64,000 bases of DNA. Source: Meghimatium bilineatum (lineage: Eukaryota > Mollusca > Gastropoda > Stylommatophora > Philomycidae). Position 1 is the stretch's first letter. Every line of letters starts with the position of its first letter. Below, piece by piece: positions 9,735 to 62,488 of this stretch. Both the position numbers and the translations under genes were made by a program. A model generated the notes under the pieces. It ran no database searches. It saw only the letters and a list, made by a program, of their open reading frames with translations, and was not told the origin of the DNA. The stretch spans positions 898,001 to 962,000 of the forward strand of contig CM067307.1 of assembly GCA_034231615.1 (NCBI GenBank), given 5' to 3'.

Positions 9735-10281
9735 TACACAATCAATCAATCAATCAATAAACCCGTAACCCTTCAGGGTCGTAGGGGTACCACATTGGAT
9801 GTCTCAGCACACAGAGTCCTCCAGAGAATTCTATCCTCAGCGATGCGGATGAGATATACACAATGTCGGTGAATGACACCTCGGCTAAGAGGGCGAAAGA
9901 GCCAGGGTCCAACTCCTGTGTTGTGTTCTTCCCCTTAAGGATCCAGGCTCACGGATGAAAAACGGTTCAGTACCCAATGGGCACAGGCACAGCACGCCCA
10001 ATTTTACGAGGCAAGTTCATAGACAGTGGAACACCTCGTGCGAGTCAGACGAGAGCAAAAATCGTCTAAGCGAAGAGTCGCCACTACGCGTGCCTGGAGA
10101 CAGATATAGAGGCTGTCACAGGCTAAGGGTAGCCCACCCGAATTGTGAAGGTATGCCGAAATCAGATGTGCTAGGCCTACAAGGCGCATAACGGTGGCAC
10201 AACGTAATCACGCTCCCGGCGGAAATCGCACGGATATCCGTGATGGTTACAATGGAGCGAACGCAAAACAGACAAACATAC
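9735..10281 (+). mobile_element. SINE-like element with 11-bp target-site duplication
   Basis: Flanked by agaaccgcata at 9724-9734 and 10282-10292. The tail-side end (acaaac-type repeat before 10281) and positions 9860-10260 match, in inverted orientation, positions 1500-1900 of the nested element at 1488-2713. The head (cccgtaacccttcagggtcgta and following) instead resembles 27120-27320 and 58415-58640, so the copy looks like a composite of two head and tail modules. Confidence 0.8.
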
Positions 10282-10337
10282 AGAACCGCATAAACAATAG
10301 TGATGAAGATGCTCCAACATGGCTACTCGAAAGTCTC

Positions 10338-10612
10338 TGGAACAGGAGAACAGGAATATATGCAGACGGCTCAGTGGAGAACAGGAATATATGCAGACGG
10401 CTCAGTGGAGAACAGGAATATATGCAGACGGCTCAGTGGAGAACAGGAATATATGCAGACGACTCAGTGGAGAACAGGAATATATGCAGACGGCTCAGTG
10501 AAGAACAGGAATATATGCAGACGGCTCAGTGGAGAACAGGAATATAAGCAGACGGCTCAGTGGAGAACAGGAATATATGCAGACGGCTCAGTGGAGAACA
10601 GGAAAATATATA
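10338..10612. repeat. 31-bp minisatellite built on an RNase H-like YADGS segment
   Basis: About nine copies of a 31-bp unit that in one frame reads GIYADGSVENRN. This resembles the IYTDGS catalytic motif of LINE RNase H domains, such as IIYTDGSV at 21160-21200. It sits directly after the SINE at 9735-10281. Confidence 0.9.
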
Positions 10613-10679
10613 TATATGCTCAGTGAAGAAGAGAGTGAAAAATGGTGGTGGAAGTGTACGACGTAGCTTTAAAACGTTC

Positions 10680-11520
10680 CTGAATAATCAACTAGTGTTT
10701 GATATGCATTAATCCTGTCAATAATCAACTAGTTTTTGATATGCATTAATCCTGTCAATAATCAACTAGTTTTTGATATGCATTAATCCTGTCAATAATC
10801 AATTACTGTTTGATATGCATTAATCATTTCAATAATCAAGTAGTGTTTGATATGCATTAATTCTGTCAATAATCAATTAGTTTTTGAAATGCATTAATCC
10901 TGTCATTAATATTCGACTAGTGTTTGAGATGCATTAATCCTGTCAATAATCAACTAGTGGTTGAAATGCATTAATCCTGTCAATAATCAACTAGTGTTTG
11001 ATATGCATTAATCCTGTCAATAATCAACTAGTGTTTGATATGCAATAATCCTGTCAATAATCAACTAGTGTTTGATATGCATTAATCCTGTCAATAATCA
11101 ACTAGTTTTTGATATGCATTAATCCTGTCAATAATCAACTAGTGTTTGATATGCATTAATCCTGTCAATAATCAACTAGTTTTTTATATGCATTAATCCT
11201 GTCAATAATCAACTAGTTTTTGATATGCATTAATCCTGTCAATAATCAACTAGTGTTTGATATGCAATAATCCTGTCAATAATCAACTAGTGTTTGATAT
11301 GCATTAATCCTGTCAATAATCAATTACTGTTTGATGTGCATTAATCCTTTCAATAATCAAGTAGTGTTTGATATGCATTAATCCTGTCATTAATATTCAA
11401 CTAGTGTTTGAGATGCATTAATCCTGTCAATAATCAACTAGTGTTTGAGATGCATTAATCCTATCAATAATCAATTAGTGTTTGATATGCATTAATCATG
11501 TCAATAATCAACTAGTTTTG
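10680..11520. repeat. 37-bp minisatellite
   Basis: About 22 copies of a 37-bp unit containing actagtgtttgatatgcatt. Variants at the tttttgat and gagatgc positions are shared between distant copies, which points to block duplication inside the array. Confidence 0.95.
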
Positions 11521-11589
11521 GAGAGGCGTTCATCCTGACAATACTCCATAAAGACTTAAACACTTAATTAGCCGGATCAGCAGGCAGAT

Positions 11590-11852
11590 TTCTTGGACTT
11601 TGATGGTAGGACAAACCCACCAACGCTGATGTATGTCAGGACAAAGTCACCAACGCTGGTGTATGTCAGGACAAAGTCACCAACGCTGATGTATGGCAAA
11701 ACAAGGTCACCAACAATGAATTATGTCAGGAAAAAGTCATTAACAATGATTTATGTCAGGACAAAGTCACCAACAATGATTTATGTCAGGACAAAGTCAT
11801 CAACAATGATTTATGTCAGGAGAAAGTCACCAACAATGATTTATGTCAGGAC
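11590..11852 (+). repeat. 30-bp minisatellite, first block, from a LINE TNADV segment
   Basis: Tandem 30-bp units encode DKVTNADV-like peptides in one frame (tnnD type variants on this side). The left flank (11580-11625) reads RFLGL, a stop, W, a stop, DKPTNADV. This is a decayed LINE C-terminal region from which the unit appears to have been copied. The array is continued at 12752 and 13567. Confidence 0.9.
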
Positions 11853-12751
11853 ATCAAATAGCAACATCAAATAGCCAACATACTGCTACTTCCATCATCG
11901 TCAATCAGGAAAAACTGCAGGTAGTCGACAATTTTACTTACCTTGGAAGCACTCTCTCTCGCGATGTCAACATTGATGTGGAAATTAACAATAGACTGGC
12001 AAAAGCTAGTGCTGTATTTGGCAGATTACGCAAAAATGTATGGGACAGAAGAGGTATAAGAACAACCACCAAACTACAAGTATATCATGCTGCTGTTATA
12101 CCAACCTTACTATACGCCTGCGAAACGTGGACAGTGTATGCTAGACATGCAAGAAAGTTAAATCATTTCCATCTTACCTGCCTACGTAAATTACTAAACA
12201 TCCATTGGTGGGACAAAGTACCAGACTACGAGGTCTTGGAAAAATCAACCTCAATAAGCATCAACACAATACTTATGAAGGCGCAGGCACGCTGGGCAGG
12301 CCATCTTGTGCGTATGGAGATCTCGCGTTTGCCAAAACAAATATATTATGGATAACTCAAGGCAGGATTTCGAAAAGCTGGTGGACAGAAAAAGCGTTTC
12401 AAAGACACGCTCAAGTCATCCTTGAAACATCTTAACATTGACGTAGGCGCTTGGGAGAGCCTCGCTCAGGATAGAACAGCATGGCGGTACAGCATTAGAA
12501 CGGGAGCACTAGCGGCAGAAGAATTCAGACAAGAAACTGCAAGACAGAAGCGGACACGTAGAAAAGAAAAAACATCTCAACCTCACACAGATACCTTCTA
12601 TTGTTGTCAATTCTGTAAAAGAACATTTTGTGCGCGCATTGGACTTGCTAGTCATTTAAAAATGCACTATTAACTTTATTTTTTTATTATTTATTGTTAT
12701 TATTATTATGGTTGAGTTTTTGGTCATCGTCGATCACGACGGACGAACATC
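11853..12751 (+). mobile_element. LINE C-terminal fragment with C2H2 zinc finger, inserted in the 30-bp array
   Basis: The plus-strand translation gives FTYLGSTLSRD, VIPTLLYACETWTVY, CLRKLLNIHWWDKVPDYEV and ARWAGHLVRM. After a frameshift near 12340 it continues LAQDRTAWRYSIRTGA and ends in a C2H2 finger (CQFCKRTF, then HLKMH) before a stop at about 12672. It is the same family as 48010-49620. The array resumes with atgtcaggaca on both sides (near 11843 and 12752), consistent with insertion, although the repeat unit itself would give the same match. It is 5' truncated, so it lacks the catalytic domains. Confidence 0.85.
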
Positions 12752-13229
12752 ATGTCAGGACAAAGTCACCAACAATGATTTATGTCAGGACAAAGTCACC
12801 AACAATGATTCATGCCAGGACAAAGTCATCAACAATGATTCATGCCAGGACAAAGTCATCAACAATGATTTATGCCAGGACAAAGTCATCAACAATGATT
12901 TATGTCAGGAAAAGTCACCAACGCTGATGTATGGTACGACCAAGTCACCAACGCTGATGTATGGTACGACCAATTCACCAAAGCTGATGTATGGTACGAC
13001 CAAGTCACCAACGCTGATGTATGGTGGGACAAAGTCACCAACGCTGATGTATGGTCGGACAAAGTCACCAACGCTGATGTATGGTCGGACAAGTCACTAA
13101 CGCTGATGTATGGTGGGACAAGTCACCAACGCTGATGTATGGTCGGACAAAGTCACCAACGCTGATGTATGGTCGGACAAAGTCACCAACGCTGATGTAT
13201 GGTGGGACAAGTCACCAACGCTGATGTAT
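12752..13229. repeat. 30-bp minisatellite, second block
   Basis: Continuation of the TNADV-type array, changing from acaatgatt-type to acgctgatg-type units near 12915. Interrupted at 13230 by a short LINE fragment. Confidence 0.9.
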
Positions 13230-13566
13230 CTATCTATCTATTCGCTGAAACACTTTGTTGCCTTTCGGCATAAGAGGTAGAAGAGTTTTCTGGAGACGGC
13301 CCTCTTGTGTGCTGAGTACATTGTGGAATTTTTCGCCTATTTTATTTCAGTGGTCCATCGTTTTCATGGTCGATCTCTAGATCTGCCGTCGCCGTATCTG
13401 TGTAGCATAGCTTGTTGTGATATGATATCTGATGGTAGTCTGCTGATGTGTGCAAACCATTTGATATGTTGTCTCTTGATGTTTTATAAGATTGGGGTGG
13501 TGCCGGTTTGTTGTCGGATGTCCTTCCTCGCCCTGTGTCTTAACGATATTCCTAGGATTCGTTAAT
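13230..13566 (-). mobile_element. Short LINE 3' fragment with (GATA)n tail inside the array
   Basis: Homologous to 19420-19760 and 43620-43830: the C-terminal region of an RTE-like reverse transcriptase. On the minus strand it ends in a (GATA)n tail (tatctatctatc at 13228-13240). The array motif aacgctgatgtat stands on both sides (13217-13229, 13567-13579) as target duplication or simply as repeat units. Confidence 0.75.
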
Positions 13567-14532
13567 AACGCTGATGTATATCAGGACAATTACCAAAGCT
13601 GATGTATGGCAGGACAATTACCAACGCTGATGTATGGTGGGACAATTACCAACGCTGATGTATGGCAGGACAATTACCAACGCTGATGTATGGCAGGACA
13701 ATTACCAACGCTGATGTATGGTGGGACAATTACCAACGCTGATGTATGGCAGGACAATTACCAACGCTGATGTATGGTGGGACAATTACCAACGCTGATG
13801 TATGGCAGGACAATTACCAACGCTGATGTATGGCAGGACAATTACCAACGCTGATGTATGGTGGGACAATTACCAACGCTGATGTATGGTGGGACAATTA
13901 CCAACGCTGATGTATGGCAGGACAATTACCAACGCTGATGTATGGCAGGACAATTACCAACGCTGATGTATGGTGGGACAATTACCAACGCTGATGTATG
14001 GCAGGACAATTACCAACGCTGATGTATGGTGGGACAATTACCAACGCTGATGTATGGCAGGACAATTACCAACGCTGATGTATGGCAGGACAATTACCAA
14101 CGCTGATGTATGGTGGGACAATTACCAACGCTGATGTATGGCAGGACAATTACCAACGATGATGTATGGCGGGACAATTACCAACGCTGATGTATGGAAG
14201 GACAATTACCAACGCTGATGTATGGCAGGACAATTACCAACGCTGATGTATGGTGGGACAATTACCAACGCTGATGTATGGCAGGACAATTACCAACGCT
14301 GATGTATGGTGGGACAATTACCAACGCTGATGTATGGCAGGACAATTACCAACGCTGATGTATGGCAGGACAATTACCAACGCTGATGTATGGTGGGACA
14401 ATTACCAACGCTGATGTATGGCAGGACAATTACCAACGATGATGTATGGCGGGACAATTACCAACGCTGATGTATGGAAGGACAATTACCAACGCTGATG
14501 TATGGCAGGACAATTACCAACGCTGATGTATT
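13567..14532. repeat. 30-bp minisatellite, third block
   Basis: About 32 copies of a 30-bp unit containing accaacgctgatgtatgg. Variants ggcagg and ggtggg alternate in recurring patterns, a sign of multi-unit duplications. It ends by running into LINE coding sequence at 14530. Confidence 0.95.
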
Positions 14533-14665
14533 GGAAAGAGAAAGAAATACATCCGGGTTTATTTCTACGCTCAGCATGCGCAGACTCCGATGGCTGGGAC
14601 ACACTAAGAGGAAGGAAAATGGCAAAATATTTAAAGATATTATATGGAGATTTAGTCTTGGAGAT
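14505..14665 (+). pseudogene. LINE C-terminal remnant between two arrays
   Basis: The plus frame reads TNADVLERERNTSGF, STLSMRRLRWLGHTKR, then KIFKDIIWRFSL, or KILYGDL in the neighbouring frame. The order TNADV, RRLRWLGH, ILYGEL is the C-terminal order of a common LINE family. The array to the left repeats the TNADV segment and the array to the right repeats the LYGEL segment. Confidence 0.75.
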
Positions 14666-15482
14666 AATCTATTATATGGAGAATTGCAGTCTTGGAGATA
14701 ATCTATTATATGGAGATTTAGTCTTGGAGATAATCTATTATATGGAGAATTGCAGTCTTGGAGATAATCTATTATATGGAGAATTGCAGTCTTGGAGATA
14801 ATCTATTATATGGAGAATTGCATTCTTGGAGATAATCTATTATATGGAGAATTGCATTCTTGGAGATAATCTATTATATGGAGAATTGCATTCTTGGAGA
14901 TAATCTATTATATGGAGAATTGCATTCTTGGAGATAATCTATTATATGGAGAATTGCATTCTTGGAGATAATCTATTATATGGAGAATTGCATTCTTGGA
15001 GATAATGTATTATATGGAGAATTGCATTCTTGGAGATAATCTATTATATGGAGAATTGCATTCTTGGAGATAATCTATTATATGGAGAATTGCATTCTTG
15101 GAGATAATCTATTATATGGAGAATTGCATTCTTGGAGATAATCTATTATATGGAGAATTGCATTCTTGGAGATAATCTATTATATGGAGAATTGCATTCT
15201 TGGAGATAATCTATTATATGGAGAATTGCATTCTTGGAGATAATCTATTATATGGAGAATTGCATTCTTGGAGATAATCTATTATATGGAGAATTGCATT
15301 CTTGGAGATAATCTATTATATGGAGAATTGCATTCTTGGAGATAATCTATTATATGGAGAATTGCATTCTTGGAGATAATCTATTATATGGAGAATTGCA
15401 TTCTTGGAGATAATCTATTATATGGAGATTTAGTCTTGGAGATAATCTATTATATGGAGATTTAGTCTTGGAGATAATCTAG
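14640..15482. repeat. 34-bp minisatellite from a LINE LYGEL segment
   Basis: About 24 copies of a 34-bp unit containing tatggagaattgcattcttg. The first units read LLYGDL and LLYGELQSW in frame, matching the LINE remnant they grow out of. The last two copies return to the first-unit variant (gatttagtc), so the array ends resemble its beginning. Confidence 0.95.
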
Positions 15483-15882
15483 TGTAGATCTCTACTTCGA
15501 TGCAAAGGCACATATGTAATCGCGATTATGCATGATACAGATGCTGACATGGAATCATCGGAACATGACGTCATCGATTGTTTGACATGAAAGTGTAACA
15601 TCAGGAATAAAGTTAAATGAGAAAATGATAGCAGTTCATTCAAGACCTGCATCTCTAAGGAAACTCGTAAGCATACAATCTTACAAGTGGGCCTGTGATT
15701 CCTTGTACATTCAATGGAAGACTATTTGCATCTCAGTCTTTTGAGTCCCATTCATAATCATCATAGGTAGTAGATGATATTTCTTATATCACAACAATAC
15801 TATTACCGTCTGGAAAGACGGAAAGCTGTCTAATATACGTAAAATTTAATAACGTGAACAATTGTTTGATCTTCCTTCTCAG
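15483..15882. other. Upstream region of the lectin gene
   Basis: No recognisable core promoter element was identified with confidence. The stretch cttccttctcag directly before the ATG at 15883 is a good splice acceptor, so a 5' untranslated exon probably lies further upstream and the promoter may lie in or beyond this stretch. Confidence 0.35.
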
Positions 15883-15922
15883 ATGCGATTTGTGTTGCTC
15901 CTGGCTCTGGCCGCTCAGTGCG
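15883..15922 (+). CDS. Lectin exon 1: signal peptide
   Basis: Encodes MRFVLLLALAAQC plus one base. The donor is gtaagt. The acceptor-like cttccttctcag touches the ATG, suggesting a preceding non-coding exon. Confidence 0.8.
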
Positions 15923-18900
15923 GTAAGTATTTTAACATTTCAACTCGACCTTCAAATCTAATCTCTGCCTCTATGAGTATATTTATAAGCTAAGAATTGA
16001 GGAGAAAATACAAGACGATGATGACATATGTTGTAGATAATAATAGCCGGCCAGCACAGTAGATGACTGAACAGTTTCAGACGTGTACATCTCTCTGATG
16101 TGTACGGGGATTACTGAAAAGTCCAATCCTGGCAAATAATCCCCTGCCACAGTTGGTACACTTATGAGAATTTGACTCATGTGTGTTTGTTGTTTTGTCT
16201 TTTCCAACAGAACGTTTTCTCCACGCCTCTTAGATTTGATGCCTCTCAGATTGGATGCCTCTCAGATTGGATGCCTCTCAGATTTGATGCCTCTCGACAG
16301 TGCAAGCACTTATGCTGGTGTTGGTTAACACAAGCAAAAAAGACAAGTTCCTGACATTTCAGGCATCTCTGTCTTTTACTATATCATGAACCCTGACAGC
16401 ATAAGGAGCACAAATTAAAATGATATTTCAAAACAAATATATTCAAATTCATTGCGAGTTATCATATTATACATAGCATATAATTATTACCAACCGTGGG
16501 CGATACGTATTACCCAAGTGTTGTACACGTGACTAACATTCACAGCTAAACATGTGTCCCCACCCATGTGTCCCCACCCATGTGTCCCCACCCATGTGTT
16601 GTAGACTATACTAACATTCACAGCTAGACATGTGTCCCCACCCATGTGTTGTAGACTTGACTAACATTCACAGCTAAACACGTGTCCCACCCATGTGTTT
16701 ATGTCAAGCCTGGGTACAACAAGTAAAGTACTCTTCCTTTCGGGTTCCCCATGAGCTCAACAATAAAAATATCTCCTAGAAGTTCATATGTGATGTAGTC
16801 TATTGAAATTGTCAATGTCTGTCCGTTCTTCTTCTCGTTGAATTAAGTTGTTATTTCTATAAGTTTCGTTTGGGATCTTCCGCCTTGTCTTCGTTGGTGA
16901 GTTCGGTTATTTCTGGTCTACGTCAAATGAGGATGATAAAATTCGATGGAGAGGTGTTCAAGTCCTCTCGATAATTTGTTAACACGTTACAGATCTGGTT
17001 GGAGAAAGTTCTACACTTCTCTAATATAAACCACAATTGGCTCGTCTTCTCACTGTCAGATGTCACCTGATGTAACATGTATTTTATGTATACATGTATT
17101 TTATCCTTGATAAATGCCTTTCTGTCGAAACGTCGATGTGTGTGTGTGCCTATATGTGTTTCATTTTGCTATCAAAATTTCATTACTCCGTTTCACGCTT
17201 TACCTGTTCAATTGTCCACGTCTTCTCCTATCTTCCACTTGTGATATCTTCCTAGTTTTGTCTTAACGTCCTACTAACTTACCAATCTTCTACTATCTTC
17301 CACGTGTTCTCCCATCTTCTCCGTATTCACCTACCCTCCCAATCTTCTCCTATCGTCTTCATCCTCTCCTATCTTCCCCGTCTTCTCCCATCTTCTCCCA
17401 TCTTCGATTAAGACGGAAGTCAAGAGACATATTTAAAAATATTTTTATGCCAACACTCTGATATCAATGCCAGATATGCCTATAGTAGCTGACAGCAGCT
17501 CAGTAGAGAAAAATTACAACATGTGAGATTAAATACCTGAGAAATGAAACAATAGTGATCACTAGACAAAATGAGAAATGAAGAAATCAGGAGAAGAATC
17601 GGTATAAGACCATGCACAGAATACATCGAGAAACAACAAATAAAATGGTTTTGACACCTTATGAGAATTAACTGTAACCAACTACCAACAAGAACATACA
17701 ACATAAGAAGATCTGGATACAAGGCAAGAGGAATACATAGAAAAAAATTATATAGTTTTATGACATCATCATCATCATCAGGTGCCATGCCGGGTGGCGT
17801 AGGCGGTCATGGCTCTCCACAGCTCTCTGTCCACAGTATTATGTATCAAAGTCGTTGTTGTTTCTTTGCCGTGCCAGGTTGTCAAACTGTCTAATATTTT
17901 CTCACGTTGTCGCCCTCTGTCTCTGGTGCCTTCAATCTTGCCTGTTGTGATTATGTTCTCTAAACCTGCCTGTCTCATGAAGTGGCCAAAAAAAGAAGAT
18001 TGCCTTTTTCTTATATTGTTGATTAAGGTCCGTTTCGCATATAACTCTTTTAACACCTCTACATTAGTTTTTCTGGCAGTCCATGGTATTCTCAGCATTC
18101 TTCTGTAGAACCACATCTCTGTTTTAAGACAACCCTGAATAAATACGGATTTAACAGAGCCAAGGCGACACATCTGGCATTGGGCAGACAACTAAAGCTC
18201 TTAGTCACCACCCCTGCGCTTAACGGAAAGTGTGGATATTCTGACCATCATCCAACTGGGGATAGACAATAAACATCTAAATATGTTTTATATTTCTGAT
18301 GTATATTAATGCCTTATATAATTTCCATACATCTAAACCTGTTCACTGTGAATACGGATCCATCTAAATCTGTTCACTGTGAATACGGATCCATCTAAAT
18401 CTGTTCACTGTGAATACGGATCCATCTAAATCTGTTCACTGTGAATACGGCCCTAGTGTATGGTCGTTTGTGCAGATTAATTACCAGTTTTTATATCACG
18501 TTGTCTAAGTTTCAGTAAGTTGTAGATTCTAGTACAAAATATAAGTCTTTCTTTCTAGTAATTCTGATATTAATGTTTAACGATGCTTCAGTTAGAAATG
18601 GTGTTTCTTGATGTTTCAATTAGATATGGTGTTTCTTGATGTTTCAATTAGATATGATGTTTAACAATTTTTGACTTCGAGACGATGTTTGTTGATTTTT
18701 CAGTTAGAAATAAATTTTTTCAGGATGTTTCAGTTAGAAATAATGTTACGTGATGATTATGTTAGAAATGATGTTGAGTTGTTTTCAGCTAGAATGAAGG
18801 AAGACATAATTCCGCTACAAGTCTTCATGTGGAACGCTCAGAAGAACATTTATGAATGAATTACAATCAATAGGCATAAATGCACAAGACCTGCACTCCT

Positions 18901-31639: not shown

Positions 31640-31950
31640 ACACACTGTAGTAATTCAAGAGATAACACCCTCAGTTCCTTGGATGATAAATATCCACAAG
31701 ACATATGGGTCAAAGTATACACAGATGGGTCAGCACAAGACATATGGGTCAGGTATACACAGATGGGTCAGCACAGGACATATGGGTCAGAGTATACACA
31801 GATGGGTCAGCATAAGACATATGGGTCAGACTATACACAGATGGGTCAGCACAAGACATATGGGTCAGCACAGAATGCATTGAGGAATGGAGGTGAAGGT
31901 GTATATATAGAATATCCACACAAGCCTAGAGATACGATCAGAACACAGTA
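31640..31950 (+). pseudogene. LINE RNase H fragment interrupted by its own array
   Basis: The plus frame from 31679 reads DIWVKVYTDGSAQ, then the repeat, then QNALRNGGEGVYIEYP. YTDGSA and NGGxGVYI are consecutive parts of RNase H domains in LINEs. Between them the YTDGSAQ segment has been multiplied. No other domain of the element is near, so it is a small remnant. Confidence 0.65.
31698..31872. repeat. Tandem array of the RNase H YTDGS segment
   Basis: Four to five copies of a unit of about 39 bp with acacagatgggtcagcaca. The first copy is in frame with the surrounding RNase H coding sequence. Confidence 0.85.

Positions 31951-41423: not shown

Positions 41424-62488
<21,065 letters not shown>

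Follow-up and report, generated by a model that had tools for sequence, protein, structure and literature searches.

Short direct repeats of 5–10 bp can give birth to minisatellites in the model of Haber and Louis (1998), as summarised in PMC6947457 and PMC3389668. Minisatellites derived from Alu and other transposable elements (TEs) are also described, with hotspots in AluS and LTR12 (PMC3389668, citing Jurka and Gentles for Alu). In the same account, flanking direct repeats, mostly of 7 bp, are reported for 300 cases, and the LTR12 arrays are thought to have been carried by transposition. The tandem repeats CRM1TR and CRM4TR of maize arose more than once from similar regions of related retrotransposons, and by the account in PMC3648361 the short direct repeats needed for a one-step birth were not found. 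Satellites derived from long interspersed nuclear elements (LINEs) include HinfI of chicken (CR1, partial ORF2) and PROsat of Phodopus (LINE-1 ORF2) (PMC9659126). The locus described here consists of two neighbouring minisatellite arrays, of 30-bp and 34-bp units, within a 64-kb stretch of the genome of the gastropod Meghimatium bilineatum (G000:C10:898001-962000, in an assembly of 1.61 Gb and 32 contigs). This whole stretch is called the window, and positions are counted from its first base.

The locus agrees with the Haber–Louis model, as those summaries give it, in that an 8-bp direct repeat has the position and spacing that correspond to the 34-bp array and its unit length; a 7-bp repeat corresponds in the same way to the 29-bp arrays found elsewhere in this LINE family. 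Slippage or unequal exchange followed by growth is a further likeness, which we infer from the outcome. Unlike the cases summarised there, the seeds underlie arrays in many copies of one LINE, and the 30-bp array has no seed. As in the Alu and LTR12 minisatellites of PMC3389668, certain parts of the element are multiplied more often, and carriage by transposition parallels what is proposed below for the 30-bp array. However, the sequence here is the coding 3' end of a LINE, its junctions are resolved to single bases, and variants among the units help to tell repeated birth from inheritance. Recurrent origin from similar retrotransposon regions is shared with CRM1TR and CRM4TR, which consist of long terminal repeat or untranslated sequence (PMC3648361). 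HinfI and PROsat are likewise tandem DNA related to a LINE coding region, but they are classed as satellite DNAs (PMC9659126), whereas the present arrays have short units and occur at dozens of dispersed loci. Direct-repeat founders, Alu-derived minisatellites, the AluS and LTR12 hotspots and transposition-carried arrays are already in print (PMC6947457, PMC3389668, PMC3648361, PMC9659126). Literature searches, which did not cover subscription journals, found no published case of recurrent LINE-born arrays. What this locus adds is a LINE coding region with three comparable places: two have seeds and show signs of repeated birth, and the array of the third was probably inherited.

The LINE copy and its two arrays

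The LINE family was found by a DNA search with the stretch between the two arrays, and a majority consensus of 818 bp was built from 29 other copies. This consensus reads SFHMRCLRRILGVRWQDKVTNTDVLERTGNTTVFSMLSLRRLRWLGHTRRMEDGRILKDLLYGELQSGKRSQGRPLLRYKDVCKCDMHDTGIDTESWEQDAMDRVAW, followed by a zinc-finger-like end (recognised by eye; all Pfam matches are below threshold). Three pieces of the window align to it in order (window 11586–11634 to 251–299, 14503–14670 to 269–439, and 15445–15850 to 402–818), scoring 62, 189 and 402, where the best of 200 shuffles of each reached 38, 38 and 44. Both arrays therefore lie in one LINE copy, which extends past the second array. A reading of the window made earlier from its letters alone (the sequence-only reading) had proposed that the two arrays grew from two segments of one LINE C-terminus. 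The ordered match to the 29 copies confirms the observation, and the interpretation is supported by the family consensus, which contains both array units, and by expansions at both places in other copies. That reading had not described the LINE sequence to the right of the 34-bp array.

Window 11586–15850 is one old copy of the LINE, comprising the 3' end of its open reading frame (ORF). It is 79% identical to the consensus, the lowest value among 97 rows (median 87%). As in TE-derived minisatellites generally, the unit aligns to the consensus of a TE family and the flanks are that same element. Candidate traces of the upstream reverse transcriptase domain that a LINE should have are a FADD-type motif in three other copies (L010, L035 and L071) and an RVT_1 match of 13.9 bits, below the cut-off of 29.6 (E 0.044). 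Rfam gives no match within window 10000–17000. The parts of the copy, with unit counts from Tandem Repeats Finder (TRF), are as follows.

11586–11634, forward strand: remaining left part of the LINE copy, which passes into the first 30-bp unit (consensus 251–299; score 62, shuffle maximum 38)
11608–11853, forward strand: first block of the 30-bp array, 8.2 units (TRF), at site A of the LINE, which is occupied in other copies too
11860–12753, forward strand: insertion into the 30-bp array of the 3' end of another, young LINE, truncated on the left
12752–13229, forward strand: second block of the 30-bp array, 16.1 units (TRF)
about 13230–13565, reverse strand: antisense piece, probably of a third LINE, whose 3' end carries a short CTAT run (judged by eye, without a search)
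13567–14531, forward strand: the 30-bp motif continued as 28-bp units, 34.5 units (TRF), with 2 bp lost per unit
14532–14637, forward strand: unexpanded LINE stretch separating the two arrays (LERERN...RRLRWLGH...KDI)
14638–15481, forward strand: 34-bp array, 25.1 units (TRF), its junction inside the direct repeat AAAGATCT (consensus 398–405 and 432–439)
15482–15850, forward strand: right remnant of the LINE copy, to the consensus end (consensus about 440–818; score 402, shuffle maximum 44)

The 30-bp unit encodes W-Q-D-K-V-T-N-T-D-V. The 34-bp unit encodes LYGEL, readable in the first units only because 34 is no multiple of 3. The sequence-only reading had taken 11590–14532 as one 30-bp array of about 90 units, but two LINE pieces, one of them probable, interrupt it and the last block has 28-bp units. 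Because of these interruptions the count is about 59 units (8.2 + 16.1 + 34.5), not 90. The young LINE 3' end shows 99.1–99.3% identity to all seven genomic copies compared, over 893–894 bases, and all 40 scored places, the window among them, lie at 99–100%. The probable third-LINE fragment reads, in reverse frame 2, 25 residues, a stop and then NIKRQHIKWFAHISRL, resembling a LINE C-terminal region (again by eye and with no search made). The unexpanded stretch at 14532–14637 contains the place that is expanded as a 29-bp array in other copies. With three mismatches allowed, the 34-bp unit of the window matches the genome 21 times, always inside the window, and is private in this sense.

Recurrent places and direct-repeat seeds

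The sample of other copies consists of 99 loci less three duplicates (L048, L062 and L072), leaving 96. A first search had given 39 places outside the window, of which 29 are L010–L038, three are L111–L113, five entered through a second search, and two (on contigs C5 and C2) were left out. All 72 places of the second search are in the sample, those five included, and most new places of a later pattern search lie outside it. TRF units of the 96 copies were placed on the consensus. At site A (consensus 269–299) 30-bp arrays occur in eight copies (L015, L021, L031, L074, L092, L100, L109 and L111), and at site B (consensus 353–388) 29-bp arrays occur in ten (L044, L045, L047, L055, L056, L058, L060, L063, L084 and L089). 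The fewest units are 2.1, in L045 at site B, and 2.3, in L021 at site A. Besides these, L093 has 25-bp units at site B, L026 a 41-bp array overlapping site A, and single cases elsewhere have units of 22, 39, 42, 43, 47, 52 and 75 bp, plus a few weak ones. TRF finds the 34-bp array in none of the 96 copies. A 47-bp array from consensus ~353–404 of the same LINE is known from pattern matches at G000:C9:9782369-9783155.

A genome rich enough in minisatellites might put two arrays into one LINE copy without further cause. TRF gives 94 rows for the window, and its arrays of at least three units with a period of at least 10 number 46 after merging and cover 31% of it. Beside 56 other loci, arrays start at 0.38–0.43 per kb and make up 13–15% of the sequence. 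Two different arrays also occur together in L026 (41-bp and 42-bp) and in L139 (C7:13299250-13300250; a 54-bp-spaced stretch of consensus 334–356 and a 34-bp array). Chance does account for the closeness of the two window arrays, which the sequence-only reading had offered as evidence: nine gaps of at most 110 bp separate window arrays against 4.9 expected (P 0.04), which is weak evidence, and with 31% of the window in minisatellites such closeness is ordinary and was rejected as evidence in itself. However, only about 1.1–1.2 arrays of at least three units are expected at a given 30-bp site in the 96 copies, against nine and seven seen at the two sites with the same junctions (ten and eight when two-unit cases are counted). 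As the whole story chance is already disfavoured, and we regard it as very improbable. It is the multiplication of the same bases in many other copies that is remarkable, not that two arrays lie this near in this window.

Exact direct repeats of the consensus were compared at spacings of 15–80 (9682 exact-match runs of at least one base). The longest is AAAGATCT, with 8 bp, spacing 34 and position 398. Three 7-bp repeats share the second rank, one of them being AGATGGC at spacing 29 and position 353. The junction of the window's 34-bp array lies inside the 8-bp repeat (nine equivalent start positions, 398–406; P 0.012 among positions at the same spacing), and that of the 29-bp arrays at site B lies inside the AGATGGC repeat (P 0.010, likewise). 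The founder unit of the 34-bp array is flanked by a direct repeat within the 5–10 bp of the Haber–Louis model. The earlier suggestion that something in this sequence promotes tandem growth holds for the 34-bp place, with its 8-bp repeat, and for the third, 29-bp place; for the 30-bp place it is not shown. L093 provides a natural test of whether seed spacing sets unit length, as a base change private to this copy creates a second GATGG at spacing 25, equal to its 25-bp unit length (by eye).

Junction patterns, that is, sequences present only where a unit follows itself, were searched through the whole genome with three mismatches allowed, and loci were counted by hand. The consensus 34-bp junction has 49 matches at six loci. 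All six (one read in part) proved to be arrays that have the predicted junction and are flanked by LINE sequence on at least one side; their units are mostly 34 bp, in some 32. The 29-bp junction has 1245 matches, and the exact ones among the 100 matches listed come from at least 27 loci. The 30-bp junction has 3128, of which the 100 listed are all exact and represent at least 24 loci on C1 to C11. A 60-bp junction predicted from a 6-bp seed gives 17 pattern matches at three loci, including 13 at one locus with 50-bp spacing and three at one locus with 60-bp spacing. Of three junctions predicted from direct repeats (34, 48 and 60 bp), two led to arrays or array-like runs at further places. The single control junction, unseeded and at 34-bp spacing, has no match in the genome.

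We favour, at a probability of about 75%, an explanation in which slippage at a seed gave birth to the 34-bp array, other copies expanded in the same way, and the 30-bp array was carried with the element. The LINE copy would have been inserted at the window locus long ago. Slipped mispairing or unequal exchange could then have doubled the 34-bp stretch between the two copies of the 8-bp direct repeat, and more events of these kinds would have built the duplication up into an array, with short direct repeats presetting place and unit length. Other LINE copies would have expanded at these bases too, at least several of them independently. The ancestor of the 30-bp array was probably already an array in a source element, which retrotransposition would have carried to many places, and each 30-bp array would have changed length on its own after the spread. 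Place, unit, junction, recurrence and the private and shared unit variants are direct observations, from which slippage as the molecular step and retrotransposition as the carrier are inferred. The origin of a minisatellite is difficult to investigate, since as a rule there is a single instance and it comes to light when the array already exists. In a LINE family many copies of one starting sequence are available, with 29- and 34-bp units at the same bases in many of them, so that the slippage model becomes testable by relating births per copy to seed length, spacing and decay.

Birth at the locus versus inheritance

Arrays at all three places could instead have been present in source elements and been spread by retrotransposition, with no births at the loci. 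For the comparison of units, chosen loci were added: 12 from the 24 in the list of 30-bp junction matches and 10 from the 27 in the 29-bp list (some other 30-bp loci were already in the sample). A copy-specific change is found in every unit of L047 (7 of 7), L056 (53 of 53) and L084 (5 of 5), and in the 34-bp set copy-specific variants occur in most units of L140 and L141. These arrays therefore grew after their copies had diverged. Across the 29-bp arrays (20 loci, 221 units) no shared variant is enriched. The 29-bp and 34-bp units break the reading frame, whereas the 30-bp unit stays in frame. Site B has the exact consensus length in 46 of 68 measurable copies, and no class with one extra 29-bp unit is seen among the 68 (L045 measures +23). 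At site A 17 of 46 measurable copies have the exact length and the others are scattered, with no +30 class among the 46 (L021 measures +27). The variants in all or most units of several arrays, the lack of a shared 29-bp variant, the broken frame and the missing one-unit class at the 29-bp place all speak against spread from source elements at every place, and we consider that account unlikely.

The 30-bp arrays (21 loci, 245 units) show a different pattern. Several variants are enriched relative to single-unit copies: 4C>T (14 of 21 against 6 of 51), 7G>A (11 of 21 against 3 of 51), 3G>T (9 of 21 against 0 of 51) and 6G>C (6 of 21 against 0 of 51). Unit variants that are shared by arrays and absent from single-unit copies are what inherited arrays would display, and such rare shared variants fit source-element spread at this place. 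Ectopic gene conversion from a few array-bearing copies, which would move arrays between LINE copies, would give the same, and would do so in copies that are not grouped in the tree described below. It leaves unexplained, however, both the copy-specific variants in every unit and the match of the 29- and 34-bp units to direct-repeat spacing, and seems an improbable account of the arrays. The sequence to the left of the 21 loci is LINE-like in 14 and not in three (L092, L109 and L111), and four run off the retrieved sequence (by eye). Since the 30-bp arrays lack a seed and share rare unit variants, they probably had one or few births and then spread with the LINE.

Several observations weigh against seeded births and a carried 30-bp array. 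At the 30-bp place no 5–10 bp repeat flanks the founder unit; the overlap is 1 bp at spacing 30 (P 0.52), and the seed rule therefore fails to explain it. The junctions of the eight array classes other than the 29-bp and 34-bp ones overlap in the consensus by 4 (the 47-bp array on C9), 2, 2, 1, 1, 0, 0 and 0 bp, so that five of ten classes have an overlap of 0–1 bp and two of 2 bp, and Fisher's combined P over the ten is only 0.02 (the 41-bp class scores 0 by this method, yet TTGGA recurs at spacing 41 at its junction, by eye). A 48-bp junction predicted from a 7-bp seed gave a single match, and a seed alone is therefore insufficient. Two places clearly follow the seed rule; for the others, the 30-bp site included, it is unproven. 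The enriched 30-bp variants all lie at unit positions 3–7, beside the junction, where repeated junction errors may explain them. The TGGTAGGAC variant puts a stop in the frame of the 30-bp unit, so that some combinations of units would not have been compatible with a working element.

Other points on this side bear on source-element spread. Among ten 29-bp loci retrieved through their junction, three (L131, L132 and L133) start inside a unit and have no LINE-like sequence on the left, as if the array had been present before insertion or the flank had been lost; the 30-bp array of L109 likewise begins inside a unit (all by eye). The change 414G>A (TATGAAG), present in 11 of 86 aligned copies, is shared by four of the six 34-bp loci outside the window, and some of these four may have a birth in common. 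Four of these six loci are also on contig C7. The tree of copies, made with the array columns left out and without three 29-bp copies (L055, L056 and L089) and the 25-bp copy L093, for lack of columns, is star-like, with four of 90 inner branches well supported. One origin can therefore be rejected for none of the sets. On this tree nine and seven changes are needed for nine and seven array rows. In a table of groups six changes are needed each, against a shuffled mean of 5.5, and 425 and 417 of 500 shuffles are as low.

An extension of the favoured explanation would be that an active LINE lineage carried an in-frame, length-variable W-Q-D-K-V-T-N-T-D-V run in the C-terminal part of its own protein. 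The minisatellite would then have travelled as a coding part of the element and founded arrays at dozens of loci, and two further parts of the ORF would repeatedly have given rise to new arrays after insertion. We offer this tentatively and regard it as doubtful.

Other arrays and reading frames in the window

An origin in the LINE consensus was also considered for two neighbouring arrays and rejected. For the 37-bp array just upstream (10683–11543) the scores are 22 and 25 against shuffle maxima of 31 and 35, and for a neighbouring 31-bp array they are within the shuffle range. The minisatellite share of the window (31%) is about twice that beside the 56 LINE loci (13–15%). An array at 10345–10609 reads, in one frame, IYADGS once and ENRNICRRL repeatedly, and another at 31695–31868 begins with VYTDGS; both presumably recall the start of a LINE RNase H domain. 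On the minus strand at 59208–61118, a 33-bp array contains an open frame of 587 codons made of a repeated 11-residue unit, which is better explained by the unit length than by a gene. Also on the minus strand, an ORF at 54655–55299 shows DEAH-type helicase letters and is perhaps an exon of a spliceosomal helicase gene.

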